Assembly: GCF_013280595.1 (NCBI RefSeq) | Contig: NZ_JAAATY010000003.1 | Span: 372,001-436,000, forward strand | DNA length: 64,000 bases | Reading direction: 5' to 3' | Origin: Kibdelosporangium persicum | Lineage (GTDB): Bacteria > Actinomycetota > Actinomycetes > Mycobacteriales > Pseudonocardiaceae | Shown: positions 17,713 through 61,705 of the stretch, one piece after another | Numbering within the stretch: the stretch's first letter is position 1 | Layout of the letters: the number at the start of each line of letters is the position of its first letter | Program-made: the position numbers and the translations under genes | Notes under the pieces: generated by a model | What the model was told of the DNA's origin: nothing | The model's input: the letters and a program-made list of their open reading frames with translations, nothing else | Database searches by the model: none

Positions 17713-17758
17713 CTCGTGAGTGTTTATCGGTGTTCTAACCCTGATAAACACTCACGAG
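17713..17758. repeat. Dispersed 3'-end palindrome, copy 1
   Basis: Arms CTCGTGAGTGTTTATC (17713-17728) and its exact complement (17743-17758) enclose the centre GGTGTTCTAACCCT, itself partly self-complementary. It lies 34 bases after the VOC gene stop and 24 bases from the stop of the convergent DUF6221 gene. The same palindrome recurs at 42520, 48191, 55333 and 61658. Placement suggests a two-way transcription terminator carried by a dispersed repeat. Confidence 0.85.
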
Positions 17759-17781
17759 CAGGGTGGGTGCCGGCCCGCTGT

Positions 17782-18090
17782 TCAGTCGTCTCCGGGGTAG
17801 TCCGGGTGTGCCGCGTACACCGAGGCCACCAGTTTCAGCACGTCCGGGTCCTTCATCACGCTGGCCTCGGCGCGCAGGAACGCGACCTTGTCCGGGAACG
17901 GCACTGGGACGCGTTCCTCCGGGACCTCGACCGGATCGGCGGCGACCAGCAGGCCCTCACCGTCGGACGTGTACATGATCCGGATGCGGCCGTGTCTTTC
18001 CGCCTCGTCCAGGTGGGGCAGTTCACCGGCGTCGAACCGCCGCTCATCGTCGGCGAGACGGGCGAGCACGAACTGGCTGAGTCGTTCCAT
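17782..18090 (-). CDS. DUF6221-like small protein
   Basis: A 102-residue acidic protein starting MERLSQFVLARLADDERRF, given in part, with a C-terminal VLKLVASVYAAHPDYPGDD that fits the DUF6221 pattern of actinobacterial small proteins ending in a LA-YADHPDY-like motif. No catalytic motif is seen; it is probably a cytosolic accessory protein of unknown role. The family call is moderate, the coding call is firmer. A 55-codon extension upstream is open but reads into the divergent YccF gene. Confidence 0.7.
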   Translation of the reverse strand: MERLSQFVLARLADDERRFDAGELPHLDEAERHGRIRIMYTSDGEGLLVAADPVEVPEERVPVPFPDKVAFLRAEASVMKDPDVLKLVASVYAAHPDYPGDD

Positions 18091-18154
18091 ACCCCTGGAT
18101 AGCCGTTGCGCGCCGGGCTCAAGCCTCACCGCGACCCCATGCCAGACTGACGGT

Positions 18155-42509: not shown

Positions 42510-42519
42510 CCCAGCTCCC

Positions 42520-42569
42520 CCCTCGTGAGTGTTTATCCGGGTTAGAACACGGATAAACACTCACGAGGG
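42520..42569. repeat. Dispersed 3'-end palindrome, copy 2
   Basis: Perfect 20-bp arms: CCCTCGTGAGTGTTTATCCG (42520-42539) and its complement (42550-42569), around the 10-base centre GGTTAGAACA. It sits 11 bases after the lipoprotein stop and only three bases from the cebR stop, so it can end both convergent transcripts. Confidence 0.9.
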
Positions 42570-42571
42570 TT

Positions 42572-43603: not shown

Positions 43604-43660
43604 CCCGCGCCCTCCTGTCTGCCTGGCATCAGCCTATGGCCAACGCGCCGCGATCCGCCA

Positions 43661-43674
43661 TGGGAGCGCTCTCG
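43661..43674. promoter_or_regulatory. Weak CebR-like box before cebR
   Basis: TGGGAGCGCTCTCG matches 12 of 14 bases of the CebR palindrome and lies 58 bases upstream of the cebR start. It may give weak self-control, with lower affinity than the perfect box at 43727. Confidence 0.6.
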
Positions 43675-43686
43675 GATGTCCCGGCC

Positions 43687-43715
43687 TTGACATGTGACGT
43701 AACAAAGGACACACT
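43687..43715 (+). promoter_or_regulatory. Candidate promoter of cebEFG-bglC
   Basis: A perfect TTGACA at 43687-43692 is followed after 17 bases by CACACT at 43710-43715. A start site about seven bases later would place the perfect CebR box at 43727-43740 right at the beginning of the transcript, a good roadblock position. Confidence 0.5.
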
Positions 43716-43726
43716 CGCCACACGTC

Positions 43727-43740
43727 TGGGAGCGCTCCCA
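43727..43740. promoter_or_regulatory. CebR operator before cebE
   Basis: A perfect TGGGAGCGCTCCCA, 26 bases before the GTG of cebE and downstream of the proposed promoter. This is the same position as in Streptomyces ceb operons. Confidence 0.93.
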
Positions 43741-43766
43741 GAATGCCGTCCAATGAGGGGCACGAA

Positions 43767-45053: not shown

Positions 45054-45055
45054 CG

Positions 45056-46842: not shown

Positions 46843-46846
46843 GGCC

Positions 46847-48142
46847 GTGACGTTTCCTGAGGGATTCGTGTGGGGTGCCGCGACCGCGGCATATCAGATC
46901 GAGGGATCCAGTACAGCCGACGGCCGTGTGCCGTCGATCTGGGACACGTTCTGCCGTGTGCCCGGGGCTGTGTACAACGGTGACACCGGCGATGTGGCCG
47001 CCGACCACTACCAGTTGATGGAGCAGGACGTCCGGCTGATGTCCGAACTGGGCCTGCAGGCGTACCGGTTCTCCATCGCCTGGCCGCGGCTCGGTGACCT
47101 CAGCTTCTACGACCGGCTGGTGGACACGTTGCTGGCCAACGGCATCGCGCCGTGGGCCACGCTGTACCACTGGGATCTGCCGCAGTCGCTGGAGGAAACC
47201 GGTGGCTGGGCCAACCGGGACACCGCGTACCTCTTCGGGGAGTACGCGGAGGCCGTGGTGCGCAGGATCGGTGACCGGGTGTCGAACTGGATCACCTTGA
47301 ACGAGCCGTGGTGCGCGGCTTTCCTGGGCTACGCGGCCGGTATCCACGCGCCGGGGCGTACCGAGCCGAACGCGGCCGTGGCGGCGGCGCACCACCTGTT
47401 GCTGGGACACGGAATCGCGATGCACGCGATCCGTTCGTTCGCGCCGCACGCACAGGCAGGCATCACGCTGAACCTGTTCCCCGTGCACGCGGCGGACCCG
47501 GACGACGACGCCGTCAGGCGGATCGACGGCCTGCAGAACCGGATGTTCCTCGATCCGGTCGTGCACGGCTCGTACCCCGAGGACGTGCTGACCGACCTGG
47601 CGCCGTACGGCCTGCCGGAGACGATCAAGCCGGGCGATCTGGCCGTGATCAACCAGCCGACCGACATGCTGGGCATCAACTACTACCGCGACTACTTCGT
47701 CGAGTCCGGTACCGACCCGGTGTTCCCGTCGCCATGGGTGGGTTCCGAGCACGTGCTGTTCCCCGACCGCGGGCTGCCGAAGACCGACAGCGGCTGGGAC
47801 ATCACGCCGTCCGGTCTCACCGACCTGTTGCTGCGGCTGGACCGGGACTACCCGGGGCTGCCGCTGTACATCACGGAGAACGGCGCGGCGTTCGACGGCA
47901 TCGACGACACCAGCCGGGTGGAGTTCCTCGACTCCCACCTGCGGGCGTCGCTGTCGGCGATCCAGCAGGGAGCCGACCTGCGTGGGTACTTCCTCTGGTC
48001 GCTCGTGGACAACTTCGAGTGGGCCGAGGGGTACGCGAAGCGGTTCGGCATGGTGCACGTCGACTTCGAGACCCAGGTGCGGACCGCCAAGACCAGTGCG
48101 CACTGGTACGCCCAGGTGATCGCGGCCAACGCGCTTCCTTGA
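46847..48142 (+). CDS. bglC: Intracellular GH1 beta-glucosidase
   Basis: A 431-residue GH1 enzyme without a signal peptide: FPEGFVWGAATAAYQIEGS, acid/base Glu153 in TLNEPW and nucleophile Glu344 in YITENGAA. It should split imported cellobiose and cellotriose to glucose in the cytosol, and by removing the inducer also reset CebR. The segment after RFSIAWPRL goes straight to GDLSFYDRL, about ten residues shorter than usual GH1 sequences, where a PxGxGxxN loop is normal. GTG start with GGGATGAGG. Last gene of the ceb operon; a terminator and palindrome copy 3 follow. Confidence 0.94.
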   Translation: MTFPEGFVWGAATAAYQIEGSSTADGRVPSIWDTFCRVPGAVYNGDTGDVAADHYQLMEQDVRLMSELGLQAYRFSIAWPRLGDLSFYDRLVDTLLANGIAPWATLYHWDLPQSLEETGGWANRDTAYLFGEYAEAVVRRIGDRVSNWITLNEPWCAAFLGYAAGIHAPGRTEPNAAVAAAHHLLLGHGIAMHAIRSFAPHAQAGITLNLFPVHAADPDDDAVRRIDGLQNRMFLDPVVHGSYPEDVLTDLAPYGLPETIKPGDLAVINQPTDMLGINYYRDYFVESGTDPVFPSPWVGSEHVLFPDRGLPKTDSGWDITPSGLTDLLLRLDRDYPGLPLYITENGAAFDGIDDTSRVEFLDSHLRASLSAIQQGADLRGYFLWSLVDNFEWAEGYAKRFGMVHVDFETQVRTAKTSAHWYAQVIAANALP

Positions 48143-48152
48143 CAAGGGGAGG

Positions 48153-48188
48153 AAAGCGGGGCGGGTCTGCGCCAGCCCGCCCCGCTTT
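48153..48188 (+). terminator. Intrinsic terminator of the ceb operon
   Basis: A perfect 13-bp stem AAAGCGGGGCGGG (48153-48165) and CCCGCCCCGCTTT (48176-48188) with a 10-base loop lies 11 bases after the bglC stop. The A-rich and T-rich stem ends suit termination in both directions. Palindrome copy 3 starts only two bases later. Confidence 0.88.
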
Positions 48189-48190
48189 GA

Positions 48191-48258
48191 CCAGCTCACC
48201 CCTCGTGAGTGTTTATCCGTGTTCTAACCCTGATAAACACTCACGAGGGGTGAGCTGG
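48191..48258. repeat. Dispersed 3'-end palindrome, copy 3 (longest arms)
   Basis: The arms are 27 bp and perfect: the common 16-bp core plus a further 11 bp outward (left CCAGCTCACCC, 48191-48201). The centre is CGTGTTCTAACCCT (48218-48231). It lies between convergent bglC and the GH48 gene, directly after the ceb terminator. Confidence 0.9.
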
Positions 48259-48312
48259 GTTTATGCGGGGCTGAAGGGCTGATGCCGATGACAAGCCGTT
48301 GGCACAAAGGAA

Positions 48313-48338
48313 CTGGGCGGGCCGGTTGGCCCGCCCAG
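48313..48338 (-). terminator. Intrinsic terminator of the GH48 gene
   Basis: CTGGGCGGGCC (48313-48323) and its complement (48328-48338) with a GGTT loop form a perfect 11-bp stem 15 bases after the GH48 stop. On the minus strand it is followed by TTCCTTTG, a weak T tract. Confidence 0.82.
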
Positions 48339-48353
48339 TCGCGTGTCCGGGGC

Positions 48354-51251
48354 TTAGCCGAACAGTTCCACGTGCAGTGAGAACGCCGTGGCGATCTCGG
48401 CCTGCGCCCAGAACCTGTGATACGTGAACGTCGGCGCGGCCCCACCGGCGAGGTAGTCCGCCACCTTGTTCCACTGCGGGTCCGAACGGTAGAACGAACG
48501 GATCGACAAGAACGTGCTGCTCTGGTTGATCGCGTCGCCGTTCGGCATCTTGCCGGTCCAGCCCGGCGGGACGTAGACGCCCTCACCGGTCGACGAGTTG
48601 TACGTGTCGTCGAACCGGCCGTAGTCCGTACGGGTCTCCTGCGTCGCGATTCCGACCGAGTCGGTGTGCTGAAGCATCGCGTTCAGCAGACCCTCACCGG
48701 TCGTCTTCGCGGCCGTGTCGCCGGACTTCGCCGCGTAGTTCAGCAGGACCTTGGCGTAGGAGGCGGCCACGCCGACGTCCTGGCTGTGGTTGAGCACCCG
48801 GACGTGCAGCCCGTTGTTGGCACCGGGGCTGCTCGGGTTCCACGTGTCGGGCGCGCCCGTCCACTCCATGTCGGACGGGATCCGCCAGTTCGCGCCGATC
48901 GTGGTGTTGGCGATGGCCCACGGCACCCACTTGTCCAGGATCTTCTTGGCCCTGGCGTCACCGGTGATCTGGTAGAGCGACGCGAGCCGCTCGAGGCCCC
49001 AGACCTGGAACCCGAACCAGCGGTTGCTGGGCGGGTCACGCCACACCGGGTGCGCGTCGTAGAACATGCCGTAGAAGGTCGGCGTGCCCGCGGGCGGGCT
49101 GCCGTACTGACCTTCCCAGGTGTTCGTGACGCCGCCGGCGATGCCGCCTTCGCTGGACTGCAGCCACTGCAACAGTTCCAGCTGCCGCTCCAGGCTCTTG
49201 GCCCAGTCCGCGGCACCCGTGGCCGATGCGGGCTTCAGGGCCGGGTCGTTCGCCATCGCGTACGCCGCCAACGGGTTCTGGTAACCCTGGTGGCTGGCGC
49301 CGTCACCGATCCGCCATGCCCAGCCGGCGGACGTGTCCGTCGCGCCACCCCACGCGTAGTACCACGACATCAGGTAGTGCGCGCTGTCCTTGCCGGTGCC
49401 ACCGGGGCAGCTCGACGGGCTGGTGCAGTTGCCGATCCGCTTGAAGTACTTGTCGAACATGGCGTACCGCAGGTAGTCGCCCATCTTCGACGCCTTCTTC
49501 ACGACCGCGCTGACGTCCGCGCCCTTGCCCTGCGCGGTTGCCCACTTGTCCGCCAGGAAGGCCACCTGGACGGCCCGCGCGTCCGCGTCAGGCGCGTTGG
49601 TGTACTTCCACTGCTTGGCGTACGAGGCGTCCTTGGTGAACAGGTCAAGGTATCCGTTCGGACCGCCGTGCACGAAGGTGTCACAGGACGGCTGCGGGAT
49701 CGTCTCCCAGACCGACTCGGACGAACCCCGCTGATAGGTGTTCATGTACGCGGGCGCGGTGGTTCCGTCGCCGCACCGGCCGAACTTGTACGTGTTGTCG
49801 ACGTCCAGCATCCAGTGCATGCCGTAGATGTCGTCAGTGCCGTACGCGGCCTTGAGCTCGCCCGCGATGGGGTCCTGACCGACCGGGGTGTTGCTGTCCA
49901 GCACGGCCGGGTACCGGTCCATTCTCGGGTGTTCCGGTGCGTACGTGGCGGGTTTGGCCGGGTTGTACTTGTTGTTGGTCGGCTGGTCGGCGTTCGACGG
50001 GATGATGAACTTCTCCATCGAGGCCCACGCCGCGTTGAACGGCGCCCAGTCGCCCTGGAGCTGGCCGTAGGCGGCTTCCAGCCAGAGGTAGTAGCTGAAC
50101 GCCTCGGACGTGGTCTGGTGCCCGTGGTCCGGCGCCTCGACCAGCAGGGTCTCGATCGAGTGGTACGGCACCAGCAGATCACCGAACTTGCGGAAGTATC
50201 CGCTGTTCGGGTCCTTGATCTTGTTGTACTGGGTGAGGAACGCGGTCTTGAACTCCGGCGTCGACGCGTCGAGCTCGTTCACCGTGAAGGACGCCGCGGT
50301 GTACCCCGTCGCGCTGGCGGTGAAGGTGGCCGATGTGAGCTCGCCGCCGTTCGCCGCCGACGTGATCGTGACGGGCTTGGCCGTGTTCCAGTCGGTGGTC
50401 GAGAAGGACAGTTGCGCCGGGGACACGGTTAGGTCCGCGCTTCCGGTCTTCGCGATGGCCACGGTGACCGGGCCGGTCGGCTGGGTGGCCAGCTTCAGGT
50501 CCACTGTGGCCGATCCGCCCTGGCGGACGTTGACAGTGCCGGGCGTGGCGAGAATCGTCGGCGCACTGAGGACTCGGACGGCCACCGGGCTGGAGATGGT
50601 GGCCAGGCCCTTGTCGTCGTACGCCCTCGCCGTGACCGAGTACTGCCCGGCCGCGGCACCGGTCCAGCTGGCCTCGTACGGGCTTGTCGTGTCGGTGCCG
50701 ACCAGGGTCGTGCCCGCGTAGAACTCGACCTTGCTGATCGATCCGTCGGTGTCGCTTGCCGTGGCGGCCAACGGAATCGCGGTTTGCAGGGCATAGCTGG
50801 AGTTGTCCACCGGACTGGTCAGCTGTACCGAGGGCGCCGCGTTCGGGCCGACGCACGCGGTCCCGTTCACCGCGAAGTCGGTCGGCTTGCCGTTCGCGGT
50901 GCCCTTGCTCCCGTTGAAGCCGAACTGAACCTGGCTTCCACCGGCGATGGCCCGGTTGTAGCTCACGTTGCGGACCGACACGGCGGGCCCGGTCAGGCTG
51001 GCAGTCGCGTTCCACACCTGGGTGATGCGCTGGTTGTCGGGAAACGTCCAGGTCAGATCCCACCCGTCGATCGGGTCGGAGCCGACGTTCTTGATGGTCA
51101 CGGCGGCGCCGAAACCCGTGTTCCACTCATTGGTGACGCTGTATTCGACACTGCAGGACACGGCCGCCGCGGCGGGCTGAGCTGCGACGATCATTGTCGT
51201 CGAGATCAGCCCTGCCGCTACTAAAGCGGGCAGGGCGCGTCTGCGTCTCAT
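48354..51251 (-). CDS. Secreted GH48 exocellulase with CBM2 and two Ig-like modules
   Basis: A 965-residue precursor. After a 29-residue signal peptide come CBM2 (about 30-133, CSVEYSVTNEWNTGFGAAV), an Ig-like module (about 140-228, APSVQLTSPVDNSSYAL), a second beta module (about 232-325) and a GH48 domain from about 330 (EFKTAFLTQYNKIKDPNSGY). GHQTTSEAFSYYLWLEAAYG holds the likely general-acid glutamate. GH48 enzymes release cellobiose processively from reducing ends and act with GH6 and LPMO. A CebR box and promoter lie upstream. The ATG at 51251 follows GAGGAGGATCC. Confidence 0.95.
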   Translation of the reverse strand: MRRRRALPALVAAGLISTTMIVAAQPAAAAVSCSVEYSVTNEWNTGFGAAVTIKNVGSDPIDGWDLTWTFPDNQRITQVWNATASLTGPAVSVRNVSYNRAIAGGSQVQFGFNGSKGTANGKPTDFAVNGTACVGPNAAPSVQLTSPVDNSSYALQTAIPLAATASDTDGSISKVEFYAGTTLVGTDTTSPYEASWTGAAAGQYSVTARAYDDKGLATISSPVAVRVLSAPTILATPGTVNVRQGGSATVDLKLATQPTGPVTVAIAKTGSADLTVSPAQLSFSTTDWNTAKPVTITSAANGGELTSATFTASATGYTAASFTVNELDASTPEFKTAFLTQYNKIKDPNSGYFRKFGDLLVPYHSIETLLVEAPDHGHQTTSEAFSYYLWLEAAYGQLQGDWAPFNAAWASMEKFIIPSNADQPTNNKYNPAKPATYAPEHPRMDRYPAVLDSNTPVGQDPIAGELKAAYGTDDIYGMHWMLDVDNTYKFGRCGDGTTAPAYMNTYQRGSSESVWETIPQPSCDTFVHGGPNGYLDLFTKDASYAKQWKYTNAPDADARAVQVAFLADKWATAQGKGADVSAVVKKASKMGDYLRYAMFDKYFKRIGNCTSPSSCPGGTGKDSAHYLMSWYYAWGGATDTSAGWAWRIGDGASHQGYQNPLAAYAMANDPALKPASATGAADWAKSLERQLELLQWLQSSEGGIAGGVTNTWEGQYGSPPAGTPTFYGMFYDAHPVWRDPPSNRWFGFQVWGLERLASLYQITGDARAKKILDKWVPWAIANTTIGANWRIPSDMEWTGAPDTWNPSSPGANNGLHVRVLNHSQDVGVAASYAKVLLNYAAKSGDTAAKTTGEGLLNAMLQHTDSVGIATQETRTDYGRFDDTYNSSTGEGVYVPPGWTGKMPNGDAINQSSTFLSIRSFYRSDPQWNKVADYLAGGAAPTFTYHRFWAQAEIATAFSLHVELFG

Positions 51252-51279
51252 GGATCCTCCTCTGGCCGTCGTTGGCGTC

Positions 51280-51293
51280 TGGGAGCGCTCCCA
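51280..51293. promoter_or_regulatory. CebR operator before the GH48 gene
   Basis: A perfect TGGGAGCGCTCCCA, 29 bases upstream of the GH48 start codon and four bases after the proposed -10, so CebR would cover the transcription start. Confidence 0.93.
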
Positions 51294-51297
51294 GACG

Positions 51298-51326
51298 ACT
51301 GTAACGGTCCCGAAACAGTCTGTGAA
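51298..51326 (-). promoter_or_regulatory. Candidate promoter of the GH48 gene
   Basis: On the minus strand TTCACA (51326-51321) is followed after 17 bases by TACAGT (51303-51298). The spacing is ideal and the start would fall inside the CebR box. The same geometry occurs at the other cellulose promoters of the window. Confidence 0.6.
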
Positions 51327-51352
51327 GCCCAGTTGGTTGCTACGTTCGGCCG

Positions 51353-52045
51353 GTGTGGTGGAAGAAGCGTGAACCCGTCAAGCCGACAACCGATCAATTG
51401 ATCAGCGCTCTGGGCAGCCCTGACGAGTCAGTGCGCTTCAGGGCAGCCCGCGAGCTGCGTGACCCGGCGGCGGTGAGACCGTTGTGCACAGCGCTGGACC
51501 GAGAGGAACGGTCCGTGGGATTCCCTGGCCCCACTGTGCCTCTGCTGGTCGAAGCACTGGCGCAGATCGGCGGCCAGCAGGCGGAGCGCCACCTGACTTC
51601 CCTGCTGCTGAGAGAAAGGTACTGGCGGCGTGAACAGGGAGACCTCGACTGGTCCCCCGCGACAGACTGGGTCATGCCCGCGCTGGTGGAACTGGGCGGA
51701 GCGGAACTGTTGCTGCGCGCGCTGCTCAACGCGTTGACGGATTCGTGGCCCGACATCAGAAAGCACGCCGCCGACGAGTTCGCGAACATCGCCTTCCGCG
51801 CCACCGACGACGAGGGCTGGACCGGCTTCGACAACGAGCCGATCACCGAACTCCACCGGGCCGCGATGGTGGACGCGCTGTGCCTGAGCCTCAACGACAC
51901 GGATTCCCGAGTCCGGTATTCCGCCGCACTGGCGCTGGGCGACCTTGGCGACGTCCGCGCGATAGAACCACTCCGTCAACGCAGTGACGACCCCGAGATC
52001 TGGCGGCCGGTCCAAGAAGCACTGAGCAAGCTGACACAACGGTGA
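51353..52045 (+). CDS. HEAT-repeat protein
   Basis: A 230-residue soluble protein with HEAT repeats: LISALGSPDESVRFRAAREL near the N-terminus and LCLSLNDTDSRVRYSAALAL near the C-terminus, plus PDIRKHAADEFANIAF between them. Such alpha-solenoids mediate protein contacts; PBS-lyase-type HEAT proteins are similar. The GTG at 51353 has no strong ribosome site. It is divergent from the GH48 gene but carries no sign of a role in cellulose use. Confidence 0.83.
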   Translation: MWWKKREPVKPTTDQLISALGSPDESVRFRAARELRDPAAVRPLCTALDREERSVGFPGPTVPLLVEALAQIGGQQAERHLTSLLLRERYWRREQGDLDWSPATDWVMPALVELGGAELLLRALLNALTDSWPDIRKHAADEFANIAFRATDDEGWTGFDNEPITELHRAAMVDALCLSLNDTDSRVRYSAALALGDLGDVRAIEPLRQRSDDPEIWRPVQEALSKLTQR

Positions 52046-52159
52046 TCGCCAGTCGACGGCCGGTGCTTACTCAAGAAAACGATCGCTGTTGCCGACAACT
52101 GACGTGGGCGAACAGCCCGGATGTGCGGTGGACCAGGACCGGCGGCTCAGGAGTACGGC

Positions 52160-53377
52160 GTGGCGCAACGAAGGGAAGGTCTCGCCGCTCGTCGCGCGGT
52201 GCTCGGCTACAGTCAGGAAGCACTCGCGACGGAAGTGGGCGTCGACTTCACCACGGTCGGGCGCTGGGAGCGCGGAACTCTGACGCCGGCACCGTCGCGG
52301 CGCCCCGCGCTTGCCAAGGTCCTCCGGGTCTCGCTGGACGAGCTGGACACACTCCTGACCCCGGCGAACACGCCGGCGCATGCGGGCAAAGCCTTCTCCA
52401 CCAGGCGTGAAGTGATGATCGATGCTGCCAAGGCAACAGGCGCGGCAATGACGACCCGCATGTTCAATGACGAACACGCCATCGCATCGTCCAGGTTGGC
52501 GGCACCCAACGCCTTGGTCGTCCGGGTCCATCAGGACTACCAAGCCGCTCGGTACAGCGAAGTCGCCCGAGCCCTGCCGTGGGCTGTCGGCTCAGTCGAC
52601 TCGCTGATCGAGGAATGCTCTGGCACCAGGCAACGTGAGGCGTATCGGCTGCGGTACAGCCTCGCGATCGCGCAGGCCAAGCTGGCGAACAAGATCGGCG
52701 ACACCGAAGCCGCCGTACAGGCCGCTGTGACCGCAAGGTCTGCCGCGGAATCGGCGGGAGCGGAGTTCGGCCACGCGGCGGCGGCTTATCAGGAATCGTG
52801 CTCCTTGCTCAACGCGGGTGAACTCCACGAAGCCGACGAACTCTCGATGTCAGCGGCGGATCGCATAGATCCGCGAGAGCCGCAAGGTCTGAGCTGGCGT
52901 GGGGCACTCGTCCTGCTCAGCGCGATCATCGCGGCCCGGCGCGGCGATTCTGCCGAATCCGGACGTCGGCTCGACCATGCCGAGGAGTTGGCCCGCCGGC
53001 TCGGCGCCGACGCGAACATCGGCTGGACCGCGTTCGGCCCGACCAACGTCCTGATCCACAGGCTGTCCGCGGCTGTGGCCTTGGACGACCCGCACACGGC
53101 CCGGACATTCGTCGATCGCATCGATGTCACAGCGATGCCCGCGGGACTGCATGGGAGGCAGGCTCGATATCACCTCGACAGCGCATGGGCCCATGCGTGT
53201 CGCGGCGAAGACCTTCAGGCCGTGATTCATCTGCTCGAGACCGAGCGGGTCGCCCATGAACTGGTGCGTACCAACCCGAATGCTCGTGCTTTGATCGGGG
53301 AGATGCTCGGGCGTGAGCGTCGCGGCGCCGTCCCTGGGCTGCGTGCACTCGCACTCCGCACCGGGGTGATCGTGTGA
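52160..53377 (+). CDS. XRE-family regulator with TPR-like helical domain
   Basis: A 405-residue protein. The N-terminal helix-turn-helix is RRAVLGYSQEALATEVGVDF followed by TTVGRWERGTLTP; the rest is helical with TPR-like repeats (YRLRYSLAIAQAKLANKIGD; GAEFGHAAAAYQESCSLLNA). AGGAG seven bases before the GTG at 52160 sets the start. It is coupled by GTGA overlap to a flavoprotein gene, a gene pair frequent in actinobacteria; the regulator probably controls the pair, but the signal is unknown. Confidence 0.87.
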   Translation: MAQRREGLAARRAVLGYSQEALATEVGVDFTTVGRWERGTLTPAPSRRPALAKVLRVSLDELDTLLTPANTPAHAGKAFSTRREVMIDAAKATGAAMTTRMFNDEHAIASSRLAAPNALVVRVHQDYQAARYSEVARALPWAVGSVDSLIEECSGTRQREAYRLRYSLAIAQAKLANKIGDTEAAVQAAVTARSAAESAGAEFGHAAAAYQESCSLLNAGELHEADELSMSAADRIDPREPQGLSWRGALVLLSAIIAARRGDSAESGRRLDHAEELARRLGADANIGWTAFGPTNVLIHRLSAAVALDDPHTARTFVDRIDVTAMPAGLHGRQARYHLDSAWAHACRGEDLQAVIHLLETERVAHELVRTNPNARALIGEMLGRERRGAVPGLRALALRTGVIV

Positions 53378-53901
53378 GTGATCCGGCTCCTTGGCTTTAC
53401 GTCGTGTCTTCCGCCGCGCCGCCGGTTCTTCGCATCTCGGAGTTCATCACTCAGCTGCAAGCCAAGGGCTGGCAGTGCTGTCTGATCGCGACACCCACCG
53501 CGGCGTCCTGGATCGACCTCGACGAAGTGTCAACGACCACTGGGTGCCTGACACGCGTTCACCCCGGCAGACCGCACCAGCCAGACTCGCTTCCTCGCGC
53601 CGAAGCGGTTGTGGCGGCGCCGATGACCTTCAACTCCATCAACAAATGGGCCGCAGGTGTCAGTGACACGCTTGCTCTCGGTGTGCTCAACGAGATGCTG
53701 GGTGTCGAAATACCCATCATCGTTGCCCCGTGTGTCAAGGCGTCACTGCGGAGTCATCCGGCGTATCAGGAAAGTGTTGCGAGGCTGGCAAAAGCCGGTG
53801 TGTCGATGATCGATCCGGAAACTGTCACCGATCGCGATGCCAACGGGCTCGCGGTCTTCGACTGGCCGCGGATCGTGGATCTGCTGGGCGACCACCGGTG
53901 A
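53374..53901 (+). CDS. Flavoprotein (phosphopantothenoylcysteine decarboxylase-like fold)
   Basis: A 175-residue protein of the flavoprotein superfamily that includes CoaC and lantibiotic decarboxylases: WLYVVSSAAPPVLRISEFIT, AEAVVAAPMTFNSINKWAAG, the PxMxxxxN motif that binds FMN, and IPIIVAPCVKASLRSHPAYQ. It probably binds FMN; its substrate is unknown. The GTG overlaps the stop of the XRE regulator, so they are translated together. Confidence 0.87.
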   Translation: MSDPAPWLYVVSSAAPPVLRISEFITQLQAKGWQCCLIATPTAASWIDLDEVSTTTGCLTRVHPGRPHQPDSLPRAEAVVAAPMTFNSINKWAAGVSDTLALGVLNEMLGVEIPIIVAPCVKASLRSHPAYQESVARLAKAGVSMIDPETVTDRDANGLAVFDWPRIVDLLGDHR

Positions 53902-54063
53902 CCGGTGATTCACACAATCGGGTAGATCACCGCCGTAGACCCATCCGTGCTGGTCAGGTCCCATCACGCCGCATCCACGCCGCTTCGTCGCCCTGGTAAC
54001 GCCACTGTTCGGTCTGGTTGGTTGACAGGCGTTCCGATTCACCAACCTGCCAGGAGATGAACC

Positions 54064-54342
54064 TTGTCCACTGTCGACGAAGCAGACTTCGCCAAGGATG
54101 TGGCCGAGATGGTCGCGGATCACGCGCCACGGCTGTTCGCCATCGTGCTCGAGTACGGAACCCAGGTCGACGCACGCATAGCTGCGTGGGGCATGGAGCT
54201 CGACGAAGGCGCCTACATGACAACAGTCGACGGCAGGAGGCAGTACGCCCTCGCTGACGCGGAAGGAGCCCTGCGATACATCCGCGGCAACCCGGACACG
54301 ACACCACGTCTCGTCTGGGTCGAGGCACCGACACATGGGTGA
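54064..54342 (+). CDS. Small hypothetical protein
   Basis: A 92-residue acidic protein starting STVDEADFAKDVAEMVADHA after a TTG initiator, with AIVLEYGTQVDARIAAWGME and a C-terminal PRLVWVEAPTHG. AGGAG at 54052-54056, seven bases before the TTG, supports the start; an ATG at 54057 is in another frame. Codon bias supports coding. No family is recognised; it looks like a small cytosolic protein. A bidirectional terminator overlaps its stop. Confidence 0.65.
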   Translation: MSTVDEADFAKDVAEMVADHAPRLFAIVLEYGTQVDARIAAWGMELDEGAYMTTVDGRRQYALADAEGALRYIRGNPDTTPRLVWVEAPTHG

Positions 54343-54382
54343 GCCTGTCCCTGGCAGGGGGTGTTGCGCCAGAGACAGGCTC
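54341..54382. terminator. Two-way terminator between convergent genes
   Basis: GAGCCTGTCCCTGGC (54341-54355) pairs with GCCAGAGACAGGCTC (54368-54382) with a single mismatch and a 12-base loop. It begins inside the stop of the small protein gene and ends 19 bases from the end of the convergent DUF4394 gene, so it can serve both. Confidence 0.8.
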
Positions 54383-54400
54383 GCTCAGTGGGTCAGCCGG

Positions 54401-55264
54401 TCAGTGGGCGTCGAGTTGCACCGCGACGTCCGTGACGGGCAGACCGGGCAACGGGAAGTCGCCGACCTTGGTCGCGGCCCCGGTCAGGATCTCGAAGGTG
54501 TAGAACGACCCGAGGCTGCTGCCGGACATCCGGCCTGCGAGGAACCCGGTGTTGGTCAACGTCTTGCCACCGTTCAGATCGCTGTAGATGTCGGCGCCCA
54601 GGTCCGCCTCGAAGGGGACGCCGAACTTCCCGACCGGTGTCAGCACCCCGTCGTTCGGGGGCAGCTGGATGACCAGTTGGTCGTTCGTCGTGTCGCCGTC
54701 GAACAGCAGCGTTCCGGTGTCGGCGTTCAGATCGTTGTTCGTGTACGCGGCAGCCGTCACCCCGTGCAGTGTCAGTGCCTTGTCCTGGGTCGTGACTCCG
54801 CCGACGACGTCGTGGCGGAGGTTCTGCCCGGTGTCGCTGACGATCCGCAGGCGGTCGGCGACCGGGTTGAAGTCGACGCCGAACTTGTTGCCCTGCAGGG
54901 CGTACTGCAGCTGCGACACCTTCGTGAGGGTCGGCAGCGTGGGATCACTGGCGCCGGTCGGGATCTTGACCGTGTAGACGCCACCGCCGCCACCGACCAC
55001 GTACAACTTCCCGTCCTGCACCCGCATGTCGATGCCGACGGCGAACTTGTCGTTGCCGGTGAAACCGGCGATCTGCCTGACCCAGTCGAGTTGCCCTGGT
55101 GTGTTGGTCTTGAACGCGGCCATGACCGTGCCGTCAGACAGAATCCCGAACGCAGGCAGGCTCGGCACCGGCGCCGCGATACTGCTCGCGGGCAGACCGA
55201 CCGCGATCGCTCCGGCGGCCGTCACCGCGACGGCCGCGGCGGCCACCCGCTTCTTGAAACCCAT
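54401..55264 (-). CDS. Secreted DUF4394 protein
   Basis: A 287-residue precursor with an Ala-rich signal peptide (VAAAAVAVTAAGAIAVGLPA). The mature part has DUF4394 features: GILSDGTVMAAFKTNTPGQL, FGVDFNPVADRLRIVSDTGQ and TNNDLNADTGTLLFDGDTTN, consistent with a beta-propeller-like secreted protein. Function unknown. Palindrome copy 4 lies about 69 bases upstream of it, but this serves the gene before it, the RTX-type protein. Confidence 0.88.
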   Translation of the reverse strand: MGFKKRVAAAAVAVTAAGAIAVGLPASSIAAPVPSLPAFGILSDGTVMAAFKTNTPGQLDWVRQIAGFTGNDKFAVGIDMRVQDGKLYVVGGGGGVYTVKIPTGASDPTLPTLTKVSQLQYALQGNKFGVDFNPVADRLRIVSDTGQNLRHDVVGGVTTQDKALTLHGVTAAAYTNNDLNADTGTLLFDGDTTNDQLVIQLPPNDGVLTPVGKFGVPFEADLGADIYSDLNGGKTLTNTGFLAGRMSGSSLGSFYTFEILTGAATKVGDFPLPGLPVTDVAVQLDAH

Positions 55265-55332
55265 TGAGTTGCTCCCCTCATGGTGGATCCGAGGGGTGAA
55301 AAGCTATGCGTCCGTACTGGACATAAGCTGAA

Positions 55333-55378
55333 CTCGTGAGTGTTTGTCAGTGTTCTAACACGGATAAACACTCACGAG
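55333..55378. repeat. Dispersed 3'-end palindrome, copy 4
   Basis: CTCGTGAGTGTTTGTC (55333-55348) and GATAAACACTCACGAG (55363-55378) pair except for one G-T position, which is a wobble on plus-strand RNA. The centre AGTGTTCTAACACG is itself a hairpin with a two-base loop. It lies eight bases after the stop of the leftward RTX-like gene; the next gene is tandem, not convergent. Confidence 0.85.
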
Positions 55379-55385
55379 GGCTGAC

Positions 55386-55874
55386 TCAGAAGGTGAACTC
55401 GCAGTTGTACGTCACTTCCGCGTGGCAGCGGTCGATTCCCTCGCCGCCGTCGACGATGTCGTGGCCCGGGCCACCGACGAGCGTGTCGTTGTCGCCCTCG
55501 CCGTGCAGGACGTCGTTGCCGGCGCCGCCGACGATGTTGTCGTTGCCGGGACCGCCGAGCACGCCGTAACGCCCGGGCGAGTACTCGACGGGGTTGCTGT
55601 GCCCGAAACTGTCGGCGCCCGGTCCCAGGCACGCGACCGCACGACCCGGGCTGGCCTCGGAGAAGATCCAGTCGTCGCCTTCCCGGGCGTCCACCACGTC
55701 CGCCAGGCCCGTCCAGTAGATGTCGTTGCCTTCCGATCCGGTGAACCGCACCGAGAACGGCACGCCGGTCACCGGGTCCAGGCAGGTGCTGCTGCCCGGT
55801 GTCTCCGCTGACGCGGCCGGTGTCACGAGCGCCGTCAGGGCGGCGGCGGTGATCATGACGAACGAGAGTCTCAC
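55386..55874 (-). CDS. Secreted RTX-type calcium-binding repeat protein
   Basis: A 162-residue precursor with a signal peptide (FVMITAAALTALVTPAASA). Repeats of the form GGxGxDxLxG occur: GGPGNDNIVGGAGNDVLHGE, then GDNDTLVGGPGHDIVDGGEG. These bind calcium in a parallel beta roll. Four cysteines suggest disulfides. It is much shorter than toxins or proteases with RTX arrays and carries no catalytic domain. GGAGGAGGAG precedes the GTG. Role unknown, perhaps surface or matrix binding. Confidence 0.88.
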   Translation of the reverse strand: MRLSFVMITAAALTALVTPAASAETPGSSTCLDPVTGVPFSVRFTGSEGNDIYWTGLADVVDAREGDDWIFSEASPGRAVACLGPGADSFGHSNPVEYSPGRYGVLGGPGNDNIVGGAGNDVLHGEGDNDTLVGGPGHDIVDGGEGIDRCHAEVTYNCEFTF

Positions 55875-56042
55875 TGCGGTTCTCCTCCTCCGAATGGCGG
55901 AAACACAATCCGGCCGAACACCGCCGGTATTTCCGTTCCCCTTGCCACGGTCACGGTGTCCTCATACCGTCGCCACCACAGATTGGTCATCGCGACTGGA
56001 TGAGATCTGAACGGCGACTGGACGCGGTGGAGGTGGGGGTGC

Positions 56043-58943
56043 GTGCGGGTCCAGGTGCTGGGGCCGGTCCGGGCGTGGCACGACAACGGTGACCCGGTCG
56101 ACCTCGGTCCGGTGGGTCAGCGTGCGGTGCTGGGACTGCTCGCGCTCAACGGCGGGCAGGGTTTGTCGCGCGCCGACCTGATCGACGCCGCATGGGGCCA
56201 GCGCCCGCCCGCGAGCGCCGTGAACATCCTGCAGACCAGGGTGAAACACCTGCGGCGGCTGCTGGAACCCGGCCGTCCGCCACGGGCGGGAAGCAGTGTT
56301 CTGCCACGCGTCGGCGACGGTTACGCCTTACGGCTCAGCACCGACCTGACCCGCTTCCGCAAGCTGGCAGCGGCTTCCGATCCGCTGCTGCTCAAGGAAG
56401 CACTGGACCTGTGGCACGGCGCGCCGCTCGCGGACATCCCGACGCTGGCCAACCACCCGGCGGTGCTCGCGGTCGCGAAGGAGCGGCAGACCACGATCGC
56501 CCGGTACGGCGAGATGATGATCTCGCAGGGCGCCGCGGCCGAGGCACTGCCCGTCCTGGAGGAGGCCGCGGCGGAACACCCGCTGGACGAGGCCGTGCAG
56601 GCCCGGCTGATCCGGGCGTACCAGGCCGCCGGGCGGCGCGCGCAGGCGTTCGAGGCGTTCCACTCGATCCGCAGGCGGCTCGCGGACGAACTGGGGGTCG
56701 CCCCAGGGCCCGAACTGACCGAGGCGCATCAGGGCGTGCTGCTCGACCAGCCCGAATACACCCGGGCCACGGTGGTCCGGCCGGTCGGAAACCAGCTGCC
56801 CGCCGACGTGCCCGGCTTCACCGGCCGCGGCCCCGAGCTGTCTCAAATGGACAGCGAGCTCGCCGCGCCGGGCATGCCGATCTGCGTGGTCTCCGGGACG
56901 GCGGGGGTCGGCAAGACCGCGTTGGCCATCCACTGCGCCCACCGCGTCCGCAAGCGCTTCCCGGACGGCCAGTTGTACATCGACCTTCAGGGTTACGCTC
57001 CCGGCCGTCCCGTCACCCCGTTGGACGCGCTCGGCCGGTTCCTCAACGCGCTGGGTGTTCCGGGTGCGGAGGTCTCCCTGGACCTGGCCGACCGTGCTTC
57101 GCGGCTGCGCACCGAGCTCGCCGGACGCCGTGTGCTCCTTGTGCTGGACAACGCCAACTCCGTCGAGCAGATCCGGCCGTTGTTGCCTGGCACGGAGTCC
57201 TGCGCGGTCATCGTGACCAGCCGAGACAGCCTGGCCGGCCTGGTCGCGTTGCACGGCGCCCATCGGCTGGACCTGGACCTGTTGCCCGCGGCTGAGGCCC
57301 AGCAACTGCTGCGCTCGCTGATCGGCGAGGACTCCGAGTCGATCGCCGTCCTCGCCGAGCAGTGCGCCAGGTTGCCGCTGGCGCTGCGGGTGGCGGCCGA
57401 GCTGGCCATCAGCCGGTCGAGTCCGTTGCGGGAACTGGTGGAAGAACTGGCGGACCAGCAGCGCAGGCTGGAGATCCTGGACGCGGGCGGCGATGACCGG
57501 GCGGCCGTCCGGGTGGTGTTCTCGCGGTCGTACGAACACCTGCCGGCGGACTCCGCGCGTGCGTTCCGGCTGATCGGCATTCATCCCGGGACGCGCGTCG
57601 ATCCGTACGTTCTCGCGGCACTCGCCGGAAGCGCACTGGACGACGCCCGCCGGACGCTGGACCAGTTGGCCCGAGCCCATCTGACGCAATCCGACGGGTC
57701 AACTCACGACCTGCTCAAGGCGTACGCGATGCAACTGGCGGAACAGCACGACTCCGGAACCGACCGCGACGCCGCCCTAGTCCGGGTCTTCGACTACTAC
57801 CTGACCACGACCAAGGCCGCGATGCACGTCCTGCACGCGATGAACCAGGACGATCCCGGCCCCTATGGCCGGCCGATGCCGGACGCCGAAACGGCACGGG
57901 AATGGCTGGACGCCGAGTTGCCCACGCTGATCGCGCTGACCGCGTACGGCTGGCCCTCGTACACCGCCAAGCTGGCCACGACTCTGCACCGGTACCTCGA
58001 AGGCGGCCGGTACGCGGAAGCGCTTGTCATCCACGGCCACGCGCTCGAAGCCGCGGCCGACCCGGCCGATCGCGCGCACGCGTTGACCAACCTCGGAACG
58101 GTCCTGTGGCGGGCGGGCCGCTACTCCTCCTCCGCCGACCATCTCAACCAAGCGCTTGTGCTGTACCGCGAGCGGGACGACCTGAACGGCGAAGCGCGGG
58201 CACTGGCGAACCTGGGGATCGTCGACGAGCGGCTCAGCCGGTACGACCAGGCCGAGGATCATCAACGCCGGGCGCTGGCCATCTACCAGCGGATCGGTGA
58301 CCGGCTCGGGGAGGTGCAGACGCACGTGAGCCTGGGAATCATCGACGAGCGGCGCGGCAAGTTCTCGTCCGCCGCCGAGCACCTGGGCGACGCGTTGGAG
58401 CTGTGCCGCAAAATCGGCTACACGTCCGGCGAGGCGTACGCCCTGCTCAACCTCGGTTACGTCGACAAGAGGCTGGATCACCACACCGCGGCGGGCGAGC
58501 ACTTCGAGAAGGCCATGGACCTGTTCCAGCAAATGGGCGAACGGCGTGGAGAGGCGTACGCGTTGACCAACTTGGGTGAACTCGACGTGCGACGCGGCGA
58601 GCCACAGCCCGCCATCAGCAGGCATCTGGCGGCGATCGCGTTGTTCCACGAAGTCGGCGAGCAGCGAGGTCTCGCCGTGGCGCTCAACGGGCTGGGCGAA
58701 GCGTTGTCCGCAACCGGCCGTGCCACAGACGCCCGTGCCCGGCACAACGCGGCGCTCGCGCTGGCCGTCGAGACCGGCGACGAGGACGACGAAGCACGCG
58801 CCCACAACGGCCTGGCCCGTACGTTCCAGCTGGCCGGTGACGTGGACCAGGCGCGTCAGCACTGGGAGAAGGCGCTCGAGCTGTACACCAAGATGGACGA
58901 CCCGCAGGCCGAGAGCGTCCGAGCGGAACTGGCCAAGCTGTGA
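56043..58943 (+). CDS. AfsR/SARP-family regulator with NB-ARC and TPR domains (first of pair)
   Basis: A 966-residue regulator. Order: OmpR-type DNA-binding domain (1-95, RVQVLGPVRAWHDNGDPVDL), BTAD helical domain (100-240), NB-ARC ATPase with Walker A GTAGVGKT at 285-292 and Walker B RRVLLVLDNANS near 362-373, then TPR repeats (EARALANLGIVDERLSRYDQ) to the end. AfsR-type proteins activate secondary metabolism or development and respond to nucleotides and phosphorylation. GGAGG nine bases before the GTG sets the start. It overlaps a second, similar gene (GTGA). No biosynthetic cluster is adjacent. Confidence 0.93.
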   Translation: MRVQVLGPVRAWHDNGDPVDLGPVGQRAVLGLLALNGGQGLSRADLIDAAWGQRPPASAVNILQTRVKHLRRLLEPGRPPRAGSSVLPRVGDGYALRLSTDLTRFRKLAAASDPLLLKEALDLWHGAPLADIPTLANHPAVLAVAKERQTTIARYGEMMISQGAAAEALPVLEEAAAEHPLDEAVQARLIRAYQAAGRRAQAFEAFHSIRRRLADELGVAPGPELTEAHQGVLLDQPEYTRATVVRPVGNQLPADVPGFTGRGPELSQMDSELAAPGMPICVVSGTAGVGKTALAIHCAHRVRKRFPDGQLYIDLQGYAPGRPVTPLDALGRFLNALGVPGAEVSLDLADRASRLRTELAGRRVLLVLDNANSVEQIRPLLPGTESCAVIVTSRDSLAGLVALHGAHRLDLDLLPAAEAQQLLRSLIGEDSESIAVLAEQCARLPLALRVAAELAISRSSPLRELVEELADQQRRLEILDAGGDDRAAVRVVFSRSYEHLPADSARAFRLIGIHPGTRVDPYVLAALAGSALDDARRTLDQLARAHLTQSDGSTHDLLKAYAMQLAEQHDSGTDRDAALVRVFDYYLTTTKAAMHVLHAMNQDDPGPYGRPMPDAETAREWLDAELPTLIALTAYGWPSYTAKLATTLHRYLEGGRYAEALVIHGHALEAAADPADRAHALTNLGTVLWRAGRYSSSADHLNQALVLYRERDDLNGEARALANLGIVDERLSRYDQAEDHQRRALAIYQRIGDRLGEVQTHVSLGIIDERRGKFSSAAEHLGDALELCRKIGYTSGEAYALLNLGYVDKRLDHHTAAGEHFEKAMDLFQQMGERRGEAYALTNLGELDVRRGEPQPAISRHLAAIALFHEVGEQRGLAVALNGLGEALSATGRATDARARHNAALALAVETGDEDDEARAHNGLARTFQLAGDVDQARQHWEKALELYTKMDDPQAESVRAELAKL

Positions 58944-61693
58944 TCAGGATCCAGGTACTCGGGCCGTTGCGCGTCTGGCGGGACGGCGCTTTGCTGGACC
59001 TCGGATCAGCCGGGGTGCGTGCGCTGCTCGGCCTGCTCGCGCTCAACGGCGGGCAGCCCACTTCGCGCGCGGACATCGTCGAAGCGTTGTGGCACGACCA
59101 GCCGCCGCCCAGTGCGTCCAATGTGATCCAGACATACATCCGGAGCCTGCGGCGAATCCTGGAACCCGGCCGGCGCGCGTACGGCCACAGTTCCTACCTG
59201 CCTCGCATTGGCGACGGATACGCGTTGCGCGCGCCGGACATCGATCTCATCCGGTTCAAGCAACTGCTGGCCGCGCGGCAGGACGCCGACAAACTCGGTG
59301 CGGCTCTGCGGTTGTGGCGCGGTTCTCCGCTCGCCGACGTGCCCGCTCTGGCCGGGCACAAGAAGGTACTGGCGTTGACCGAGCAACGCCGGGCCGCGCT
59401 CGCCCGTTACGGCGACTTGAAGATCACGGCGGGAGCGGCGCACGAGGTCGTCACGCTGCTCGAGGACGCGGCCGCCGACCAGCCGCTCGACGAGGCCGCG
59501 CTGGCCCGGCTGATCCGCGCGTACCAGGCTGTGGGACGCCGGAGCGAGGCGTTCGGCACGTACCACGCGGCCTGCCGGAGGCTCGCCGACGAGCTCGGCG
59601 TCGACCCCGGCCCGGAACTCGCGAACGCTTACGCCGCACTGGTGAAGCCCTCGGCCGGCCAGCCCGCGCCGGCACAGCTGCCTGCCGATGTCGGCGGATT
59701 CACCGGCCGGACGGCGGAGCTGCGCGGGCTGGAGAACGCCCTGACCAGTCACGGGCCGTCCGGTCTGGTGTGTGTCGTGTCCGGCAGCGCGGGGGTCGGC
59801 AAGACGGCGTTGACGGTCCGATTCGGACACCAGGTCCGTGACCGTTTTCCCGGCGGTCAGCTGTACATCGACCTGCGCGGCTTCGACTCCGAGCAGCCGT
59901 TGTCCGCCGGTGACGCGCTCGTCCGGCTGCTCGGCGCGCTCGGCATCGCCGGGAACGTGCCCGACAAAGCGCGAAGGCTGTCCGACGAGATCACCGGCAA
60001 ACGCTTGCTCCTGGTGCTGGACAACGTGAACTCGGTCGACCAGATCGCACCGCTGCTGCCGTGCCCGCCTTCTTGCGCGATCCTGGTGACCAGCCGCGAC
60101 ACGCTGCCCGAGTTGCCCGCGCAGCACCGCGTCGAACTCCAGGTGCTGTCCCGGCAGGACGCCGTCAGCCTGATGAACACGATGATCGGCGCCCGGGCGC
60201 AGTCGGAACCCGAGGCGGCGCAAGCGCTTGCCGAGCAATGCGCCCGCCTGCCGTTGGCGTTGCGGGTGGCCGCGGAACTGGTCGTCGCGCGCGCGGCCAC
60301 TCCCCTGTCCACTTTGGTCGCCGAGTTGGCCGACCGCGGCCGGAGGCTGATGTTGCTCGACGGCGGGGGCGACCACCGGGCCGCGGTCCGCGAGGTGTTC
60401 TCGTGGTCGTACCGGCACCTCCGCCCGGACGTCGCACGCGCGTTCCGCCTGCTGGGGCTGCATCCCGGTCCCGACGTCGACACCACCGCCGCGGCGGCGC
60501 TGTTCGACACCGAGATCGCCGACGCTTCGCTCCTGCTCGAAGTTCTCAGCCGAGCGCACCTGGTGCACAGCACGGCACCTGGCCGGTGGGGCATGCACGA
60601 TCTGTTGCACGCGTTCGCCGCCGACCTCGCGAAGGACGACGAAGCCCGCGGGCGTCTCTTCGACCATTACGTCGACACGGCAATCGTTATGGCCGGTTCC
60701 ATCGACAGCGCGGCGAACCGGTCATGGCTGGACGCCGAACTGCCGAACCTGACGGCCGTCTGTCCACAGTTGCCACCGGTGCGGATCGTGCGGCTCGCCA
60801 CGGCCCTCTACCGGTACCTCGACGGAGGCAGGTACGCCGAAGCGTTCACCATCCACACGCATGCCGAACGGGCGGCCGTGCAGGTGAATGATTTGTCGGC
60901 GCAAGCGCATGCCGTGACCAATCTCGGTTCGGTCCACTGGCAGTCAGGGCGTTACGACGAGGCCGCTTCGCACTATCAGCGGGCCCTCGATCTTTCGCTG
61001 CGGGCTTCCGATCAGGCCGGCGCCGCCAGGGCCCTGACCAGGCTGGGAAGCGTGGAGGAGCAGACCGGCCAGTACGAACAGGCCGCTGTCCACCACGCGC
61101 AAGCGTTGGCGTATGCCCGCGCGGCCGGTCACGTCATCGGTGTGGCCCGGGCGCTGACGAACCTCGGCATCGTCAACGAACGGCTCGGCGACCTCTCGGC
61201 CGCGGCCGAGTTGCACGAACGAGCGCTTGAACTTTTCCTGCGGGCGGCCGACTGGGTCGGCGAAGCGGTGGCACGGACCCGGCTCGGCATGATCGCGATG
61301 CGCTCGGGCGCTTACGACCGGGCCATGGCGGAACACGAACGCGCCCTCGCCATCGCCCGCGATTCGGGGCATCTCCGTGGCGAGGCGCACTCGTTGATCA
61401 ACATCGGCGACGTGCGCCGCAACCAGGGCATGTACACCGAAGCCGCGACGAACTACTCGCACGCGCTGGCCCTCTGCGAAAGAACAGGCCACGAGTACGG
61501 CAAGGCGACCGCGCTCAACGGACTCGGCGACGCCCTCGGCTGCACAGGGATGACTGCCGAGGCGCGTCACCACTACACCGACGCCTTGGCGGTCGCCGTC
61601 AAGATCGGCGACCTCGACGAACAGGCCCGCGCCCACACCGGCCTCGCCCAAGGAAAACCTCGTGAGTGTTTATCAGGGTTAGAACACGGATAA
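58940..61693 (+). CDS. AfsR/SARP-family regulator with NB-ARC and TPR domains (second of pair)
   Basis: A 917-residue paralogue of the preceding protein with the same domain order: DNA-binding (IQVLGPLRVWRDGALLDLGS), BTAD, NB-ARC with GSAGVGKTAL and LLLVLDNVNS, and TPR repeats (ALTNLGIVNERLGDLSAAAE). The GTG overlaps the stop of the first gene. Its reading frame runs into palindrome copy 5: the last ten codons (RECLSGLEHG) and the TAA are repeat sequence, so the native C-terminus has probably been replaced by the insertion, ending just after the TPR region. It may act with the first as a pair. Confidence 0.92.
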   Translation: MIRIQVLGPLRVWRDGALLDLGSAGVRALLGLLALNGGQPTSRADIVEALWHDQPPPSASNVIQTYIRSLRRILEPGRRAYGHSSYLPRIGDGYALRAPDIDLIRFKQLLAARQDADKLGAALRLWRGSPLADVPALAGHKKVLALTEQRRAALARYGDLKITAGAAHEVVTLLEDAAADQPLDEAALARLIRAYQAVGRRSEAFGTYHAACRRLADELGVDPGPELANAYAALVKPSAGQPAPAQLPADVGGFTGRTAELRGLENALTSHGPSGLVCVVSGSAGVGKTALTVRFGHQVRDRFPGGQLYIDLRGFDSEQPLSAGDALVRLLGALGIAGNVPDKARRLSDEITGKRLLLVLDNVNSVDQIAPLLPCPPSCAILVTSRDTLPELPAQHRVELQVLSRQDAVSLMNTMIGARAQSEPEAAQALAEQCARLPLALRVAAELVVARAATPLSTLVAELADRGRRLMLLDGGGDHRAAVREVFSWSYRHLRPDVARAFRLLGLHPGPDVDTTAAAALFDTEIADASLLLEVLSRAHLVHSTAPGRWGMHDLLHAFAADLAKDDEARGRLFDHYVDTAIVMAGSIDSAANRSWLDAELPNLTAVCPQLPPVRIVRLATALYRYLDGGRYAEAFTIHTHAERAAVQVNDLSAQAHAVTNLGSVHWQSGRYDEAASHYQRALDLSLRASDQAGAARALTRLGSVEEQTGQYEQAAVHHAQALAYARAAGHVIGVARALTNLGIVNERLGDLSAAAELHERALELFLRAADWVGEAVARTRLGMIAMRSGAYDRAMAEHERALAIARDSGHLRGEAHSLINIGDVRRNQGMYTEAATNYSHALALCERTGHEYGKATALNGLGDALGCTGMTAEARHHYTDALAVAVKIGDLDEQARAHTGLAQGKPRECLSGLEHG

Positions 61694-61705
61694 ACACTCA
61701 CGAGG
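61658..61705. repeat. Dispersed 3'-end palindrome, copy 5, containing a gene's stop codon
   Basis: Arms CCTCGTGAGTGTTTATC (61658-61674) and complement (61689-61705) around AGGGTTAGAACACG. It contains the stop codon of the second SARP gene (TAA at 61691-61693) and ends three bases before the stop of the convergent sugar-binding protein gene. Confidence 0.9.

Follow-up and report, generated by a model that had tools for sequence, protein, structure and literature searches.

Why does a 64-kb stretch of the Kibdelosporangium persicum genome carry five near-identical palindromes next to gene ends? The stretch, positions 372001-436000 of contig C3 in a 10.35-Mb genome of 89 contigs, is referred to here as the window, and a sequence-only reading of it had proposed a dispersed element adopted as a two-way terminator. 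We located all five palindromes, each of which folds as one long hairpin around a centre of GTT-CT-AAC or its reverse complement. Their 16-bp arm matches the window ten times at up to three mismatches, where 100 shuffles gave 0.21 (largest 2), and Rfam gave nothing at gathering score in the window. The palindromes probably belong to a non-autonomous family of 46-bp hairpins, specific to Pseudonocardiaceae as sampled, whose main role would be to terminate transcription in both directions at the 3' ends of genes.

The expectation of hundreds of genomic copies was borne out: 167 genomic palindromes have both 16-bp arms exact, and 361 have both 8-bp feet exact with 30 bases between them. With up to four mismatches per arm, the 864 kb that we read contained 58 copies, of which 53 are in 800 kb of contig C1 and five in the window, a density of about 67 per Mb that extrapolates to roughly 690 copies genome-wide. 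All 58 copies are 46 bp long in a search permitting 36 to 61 bp, and another finder, which accepted one mismatch in the feet and lengths of 44-48 bp, returned 54 on C1, one of which was not 46 bp. Length varies among the congeners of our strain (G213 to G219): counted by eye, the G218 copy at the site of our C1:288542 has 44 nt, and G213 has two worn copies of 45 and 44.

The design combines a foot, CTCGTGAG, a variable complementary mid-stem, an apex GTT-CT/AG-AAC and the near-fixed length of 46 bp. With the centre written as CT, the consensus is CTCGTGAGTGTTTATC-(C/G)-G-T-GTT-CT-AAC-C-C-(T/G)-GATAAACACTCACGAG. The 58 copies, which were picked by arm likeness and not by their centre, show no variation on either side at foot positions 2-6 and 8, at positions 18 and 20-22 or in the two centre bases. 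Stem positions 17 and 19 are mispaired in most copies, with Watson-Crick pairs in 18 and 27 of the 58. A near-invariant foot and apex and two often unpaired positions are superfluous for a plain hairpin, and would suit an operator for a sequence-specific DNA-binding protein, such as a nucleoid, segregation or insulation factor; the sites would then lie at 3' ends only because they avoid genes and promoters, and their cores would track the protein. We consider this explanation unlikely, since the mid-stem differs widely between copies and species yet remains complementary, which a DNA-reading protein would not need. Among 82 distinct copies chosen only by their 10-bp foot and apex, 588 of 738 mid-stem cells were paired, compared to 316 after shuffling (largest 352).

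The flanks of the 58 copies are enriched in C at -1 to -3 and -10 to -12 and contain no GTAG or CGTC tag, and some copies, window copy 3 among them, have perfect outer arms. Comparison of our C1:288542 with G213 had prompted the idea that the element is always inserted into a terminator loop. We rejected it in this general form and retained it for single loci only, because the flanks of the 58 copies pair no better than shuffled ones.

Copies stand singly: the smallest distance between two of them on the 800 kb of C1 is 1,014 bp, and there are no paired or clustered units of the bacterial interspersed mosaic element (BIME) type. Solitary halves are rare as well. The 10-bp foot CTCGTGAGTG occurs alone twice in the 800 kb, both times as a half-copy cut by an insertion sequence (IS), and the 8-bp foot occurs outside copies 15 times, against 9.1 by Markov estimate. 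Uptake sequences of Neisseria and Pasteurellaceae form inverted pairs at gene ends that act as terminators, and the arm could be such a DNA uptake sequence, with which it shares a repeated word, inverted pairs and location at gene ends. However, solitary long feet are few and IS-cut, the excess of 8-bp feet is mild, and neither a near-fixed length nor a conserved apex is expected of uptake sequences. Lacking the many solitary copies, this candidate was rejected as exceedingly improbable. In the half-copies at L016:264-330 and at our C1:91965-92035, the remaining right half adjoins an identical IS end after position 17; insertion sequences appear to use the palindrome as a target. The tail of a transposase, probably IS1380-like, lies at the start of the contig and gives a DDE_Tnp_1_4 match (E 4e-5) that falls short of the curated cut-off.

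Placement relative to genes was determined with our own gene calls throughout; on the 800 kb of C1 they comprise 733 genes with 91% coding sequence. By midpoint, 51 of the 53 C1 copies are intergenic, and 25 of these 51 lie between convergent genes, where 8.1 were expected by base pairs (p 4e-8), and 17 between co-directional genes (22.6 expected). A facing stop codon lies within 50 nt of, or inside, 42 of the 53 copies, compared to 31% of 2000 random intergenic points. The palindrome contains the stop codon of a neighbouring gene in 16 cases; the facing stop is 0-15 nt away in 21 others, 16-50 nt in five, 51-150 nt in one, and farther off or absent in ten. Mapping stop-codon distances, as the sequence-only reading had advised, thus reveals a strong 3'-end bias.

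We then compared orthologous sites in four congeners by their 700-bp flanks on both sides. Ten of 54 sites of our strain were comparable in G213, ten in G215, five in G216 and six in G217, and the element was present at none, five, three and two of them, respectively, with one half-foot match in G213. In the reverse comparison, our strain had the element at six of 13 G215 sites. Where it is missing, another hairpin can stand in its place. Opposite our copy at C1:245171, G213 and G217 have a canonical hairpin, GCCTCGTGG..CCACGAGGCTTTTCTT, and G215 a close form, with a T-tract in all three, and other strong hairpins without a clear T-tract lie opposite our copies at 418311 and 32818 and opposite G215:268550, G215:32688 and G217:182842. 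Among 32 empty comparisons (12-160 bp gap), 16 had a fold z of -2 or below (60 shuffles per comparison), counted without a control set of ordinary 3' ends; these folds fall at ten of 17 distinct loci, grouped by hand. Because congeners can carry another hairpin at the same 3' end, terminator duty is likely, judging from the sequences compared, and the proposed two-way role gains indirect support. The case rests on placement, on stop codons inside the element and on the other hairpins in its stead; the presence of such hairpins at several orthologous 3' ends also speaks against an operator.

Intrinsic terminators without a U-tract exist as a class. Our hairpins resemble them in being strong, lying near stop codons, preferring convergent genes and having other hairpins as counterparts at some orthologous 3' ends. 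They differ in that one sequence design is dispersed hundreds of times, whereas ordinary terminators of one genome are, to our knowledge, not expected to share sequence.

Several observations weigh against a family of mobile terminators. Nine of the 51 intergenic copies lie between divergent genes (20.3 expected, p 9e-4), two of these cases depending on doubtful small gene calls, so the 3'-end bias is not exclusive, and the claim that palindromes occur only at gene 3' ends fails outside the window; the gene caller, moreover, was home-made. TTTT occurs within 10 nt in only 6 of 106 flanks on C1, and a terminator scan of window positions 42000-61999 reported none at the four copies inside it, copy 1 lying outside the scan. 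The orientation of the apex does not follow gene direction (7 vs 10 in 17 co-directional copies) and therefore gives no positive sign of an RNA role, and flank pairing of our copies is no better than shuffled (z -1.1 and -1.5; anchored p 0.50). Seven of the 17 empty loci have no hairpin at z of -2 or below, empty sites without such a fold include 341928, 506017, 281692 and 24149, and 305293 is a weak case of hairpin exchange. At 288542, G215 to G218 carry the element but G213, the sister of G217 (90-95% in the compared flanks), does not; the plain hairpin of G213 at this site, CCCCTGGCCAAC-GCC-GTTGGCCAGGGG, may be an outer-arm remnant and not an unrelated hairpin. Finally, only our C1:267446 showed a clear target duplication, and we found no mover.

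The site differences themselves are of several kinds. At the locus of G217:61692, the element is present in G215, G216 and G217 and absent without trace from our strain and G213, and the difference between G215:132005 and G213 looks like a microhomology deletion leaving CACTCACGAG. Our C1:267446 is a 72-74 bp unit, CCAGC..GCTGG, between direct repeats of 15-17 bp; the repeat is single in G213, G216 and G217, and the element is also in G215 (302741, same locus). Relative to G213, G215 has insertions of 70-87 bp without leftover target at 183205, 302741 and 363014. Together with the C-rich outer arms in the flank counts, these loci would fit an element like a miniature inverted-repeat transposable element (MITE), about 72 bp long with its outer arms and moved in trans by a DDE transposase with target duplications, its terminator role being incidental. 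Yet several other sites, including G217:61692 and G217:6855, differ by about 46 bp without duplication, and the 10-bp foot revealed no longer element with matching ends in the 800 kb of C1, the 15 solitary 8-bp feet not having been inspected individually. We regard a MITE-like origin as improbable.

How far the hairpin extends was examined in 390 Pseudonocardiaceae genomes from 46 genera and in a phylum sample of 296 genomes. The exact-arm form occurs in three of the 390, our genome included, the other two having one copy each. The pattern TGAGTGTT-N8-36-AACACTCA was found in 100 of the 390 (control 1/390), and CTCGTGAG-N30-CTCACGAG in 131 from 15 of the 46 genera (control 2/390); in the phylum sample, our genome was the sole carrier. 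As far as sampled, the hairpin family thus appears specific to Pseudonocardiaceae. Carriers among the matches listed include Amycolatopsis, Prauserella, Qaidamihabitans and a metagenome-assembled Actinophytocola genome. Within our genus, copies per genome number 361, 298, 91, 84, 39, 6, 4 and 2, and in genus g30 the highest number is 97 (G322), followed by 17. A copy number ranging from 0 to 361 within one family is a further point against an operator. The exact-arm pattern was not matched in viral contigs, nor was the 68-bp copy 3 in plasmids and phages.

The survey also returned related and unrelated palindromes. In genus g5 (G022 to G039), the matches listed include 46-bp palindromes with the CTCGTGAG foot, often a GCTATAGC apex and a CACT.. 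mid-stem, perhaps a sister subfamily. A few of the places listed for the relaxed TGAGTGTT-N8-36-AACACTCA pattern are a different, low-copy palindrome; G001, G089, G093, G094 and G105 each have one listed place of the type TGAGTGTTCACTCACC..GGTGAGTGAACACTCA, which may be an ordinary operator. The assembly JOAA01, filed as 'Rhodococcus rhodnii NRRL B-16535', seems to be the same as G217, which falls in the genus of our strain, and its label is probably wrong.

The genome sample also bears on the carrier considered by the sequence-only reading, in which the element was perhaps spread by a transposase acting in trans, as for repetitive extragenic palindromes (REPs), and a REP-associated tyrosine (Y1) transposase (RAYT) was named as one carrier to look for. 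Size, palindromy, high copy number and extragenic position are indeed REP-like. However, our genome has no Y1_Tnp match, G217 is the only one of 22 element-rich genomes that has one, the element-poor G213, G214 and G219 have partial matches, and the copies lack a GTAG or CGTC tag. On the Y1_Tnp and tag results, we rejected a RAYT carrier as far as tested and consider it very improbable. The Y1_Tnp matches of G217 are two and near full-length (L261 and L265, on G217:C45 and C43).

Orthologous copies revealed that sites persist while their sequence is replaced. We scored 18 orthologous pairs, which fall into 11 loci by our own grouping and are not independent, in the better orientation. Mean core identity was 0.731 for orthologues, 0.718 for non-orthologous copies across species and 0.829 for copies within a genome. 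Orthologue identity fell below the paralogue mean in 15 of the 18 pairs and exceeded the cross-species mean in 13, so that a weak trace of the site remains. The apex (CT or AG) was inverted in nine of the 18 pairs, at five of the 11 loci, and a CCGG-centred core characterizes 4/4 copies in G216, 5/5 in G217, 4/25 in G215 and 0/53 in our strain. On these alignments, copies at one site follow the species and not the site. An operator whose cores track its protein would also produce copies of one species type. G215:293613 and G217:61692 have an unusual right foot, CTCACAAG, in common and differ in core and centre, which argues for replacement within a resident copy rather than new insertion. This is a single case, and repeated insertion at the same spots may apply elsewhere.

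Under the terminator reading, the 22-bp stem would halt RNA polymerase or be the point of transcript trimming, whichever strand is transcribed, and the copies would be spread by a trans-acting factor other than a Y1/RAYT transposase, as far as our tests go. Template switching between the arms could keep them matched and flip the apex, and the core could be exchanged for the current species type through ectopic conversion or through recurrent insertion at one spot. In the part of PMC8604942 available to us, template switching in yeast homogenizes arms and inverts spacers, and the corresponding part of PMC8794818 proposes it for RNA stems. Matched arms and inverted spacers are both present in our family, and template switching between arms could explain them without an enzyme. 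As described in these parts, such quasi-palindrome switching accounts for change within a copy and leaves the dispersal and the shared species-wide core type unexplained. The genes between the seven copy pairs less than 3.5 kb apart on C1 look ordinary, with no obvious transposase in their translations, which were read without a family search. A more far-reaching proposal, which we advance tentatively, is that the hairpins are homing-like, self-renewing terminators: a dedicated enzyme acting on the hairpin would time and again convert the residents at fixed gene ends, whichever way round, to the current genomic type, resulting in concerted evolution of a genome-wide terminator sequence.

The five window copies lie as follows. 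Copy 1 (17713-17758, plus strand, 46 bp, apex CT) lies between the convergent genes 17281-17679 (+), which is glyoxalase-like, and 17782-18090 (-), a DUF6221 match below the curated cut-off; the closest facing stop is 23 nt off the 46-bp core and that on the opposite side 33 nt. Copy 2 (42520-42569, minus strand, core 42522-42567, apex AG on the plus strand) separates the convergent genes 41982-42509 (+), without Pfam match, and 42572-43603 (-), a LacI-type regulator, with stops 4 and 12 nt from the core. Copy 3 (48191-48258, plus strand) is the longest form, its core (48202-48247) enclosed by perfect outer arms CCAGCTCACCC/GGGTGAGCTGG (I1 stem 33 nt, 94% complementarity), and lies between the convergent genes 46868-48142 (+), GH1, and 48354-51194 (-), GH48. 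Copy 4 (55333-55378, plus strand, apex CT) has one mismatch in its arm 55333-55348 and is placed between the co-directional genes 55386-55874 (-) and 54401-55264 (-), 7 nt past the stop of the former and 68 nt upstream of the start of the latter. Copy 5 (61658-61705, minus strand, core 61659-61704, apex AG on the plus strand) contains the stop codon TAA (61691-61693) of gene 58940-61693 (+), the last residues of which are thus encoded by the palindrome; the convergent gene 61708-63312 (-), without Pfam match, ends 3 nt past the palindrome. Gene 58940-61693 encodes a large BTAD/NB-ARC/TPR regulator.

Our gene calls agree with the sequence-only reading that four of the five copies lie between convergent genes, the copy at 55333 being the co-directional one. 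Its statement that every copy is within 50 bases of a stop holds for copy 3 if the longer boundary at 48191 is used (48 nt); from the core, the closest facing stop is 59 nt off. That none lies in a promoter cannot be claimed for the copy at 55333, given the co-directional start 68 nt downstream.

Known systems offer partial parallels. According to the part of PMC3733652 available, REPs are 20-40 bp long with proposed terminator roles, and CGTC repeats lack a dedicated transposase. Judged by that description, our hairpins share with REPs and CGTC repeats their short, palindromic, high-copy, extragenic nature and proposed terminator function, and with the latter also the lack of a dedicated transposase. 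Unlike REPs so described, they are 46 bp long with symmetric feet, no terminal tag and no Y1 transposase. They also occur as single copies on C1 and not in clusters, and keep one foot across 15 genera with a free mid-stem. Among open-licence PMC papers, we found no description of this hairpin family, and the available main text of a REP survey (PMC12306157) names neither Amycolatopsis nor Kibdelosporangium nor Streptomyces. As far as these searches show, the dispersed-hairpin family is new, as a variant of the interspersed-palindrome kind. It is unusual in its fixed foot and apex, near-fixed length and free stem, and in the conservation of the site while the core is replaced species-wide.

Here, a sequence that likely terminates transcription occurs naturally as a dispersed repeat, and replicate sites in several species let gain, loss and exchange of terminators be watched. 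Because orthologous copies follow the species over the site, concerted evolution of a bacterial regulatory repeat becomes directly testable. The hairpin family also allows a bounded search for a non-RAYT mover, in a bacterial family known for its antibiotic producers.

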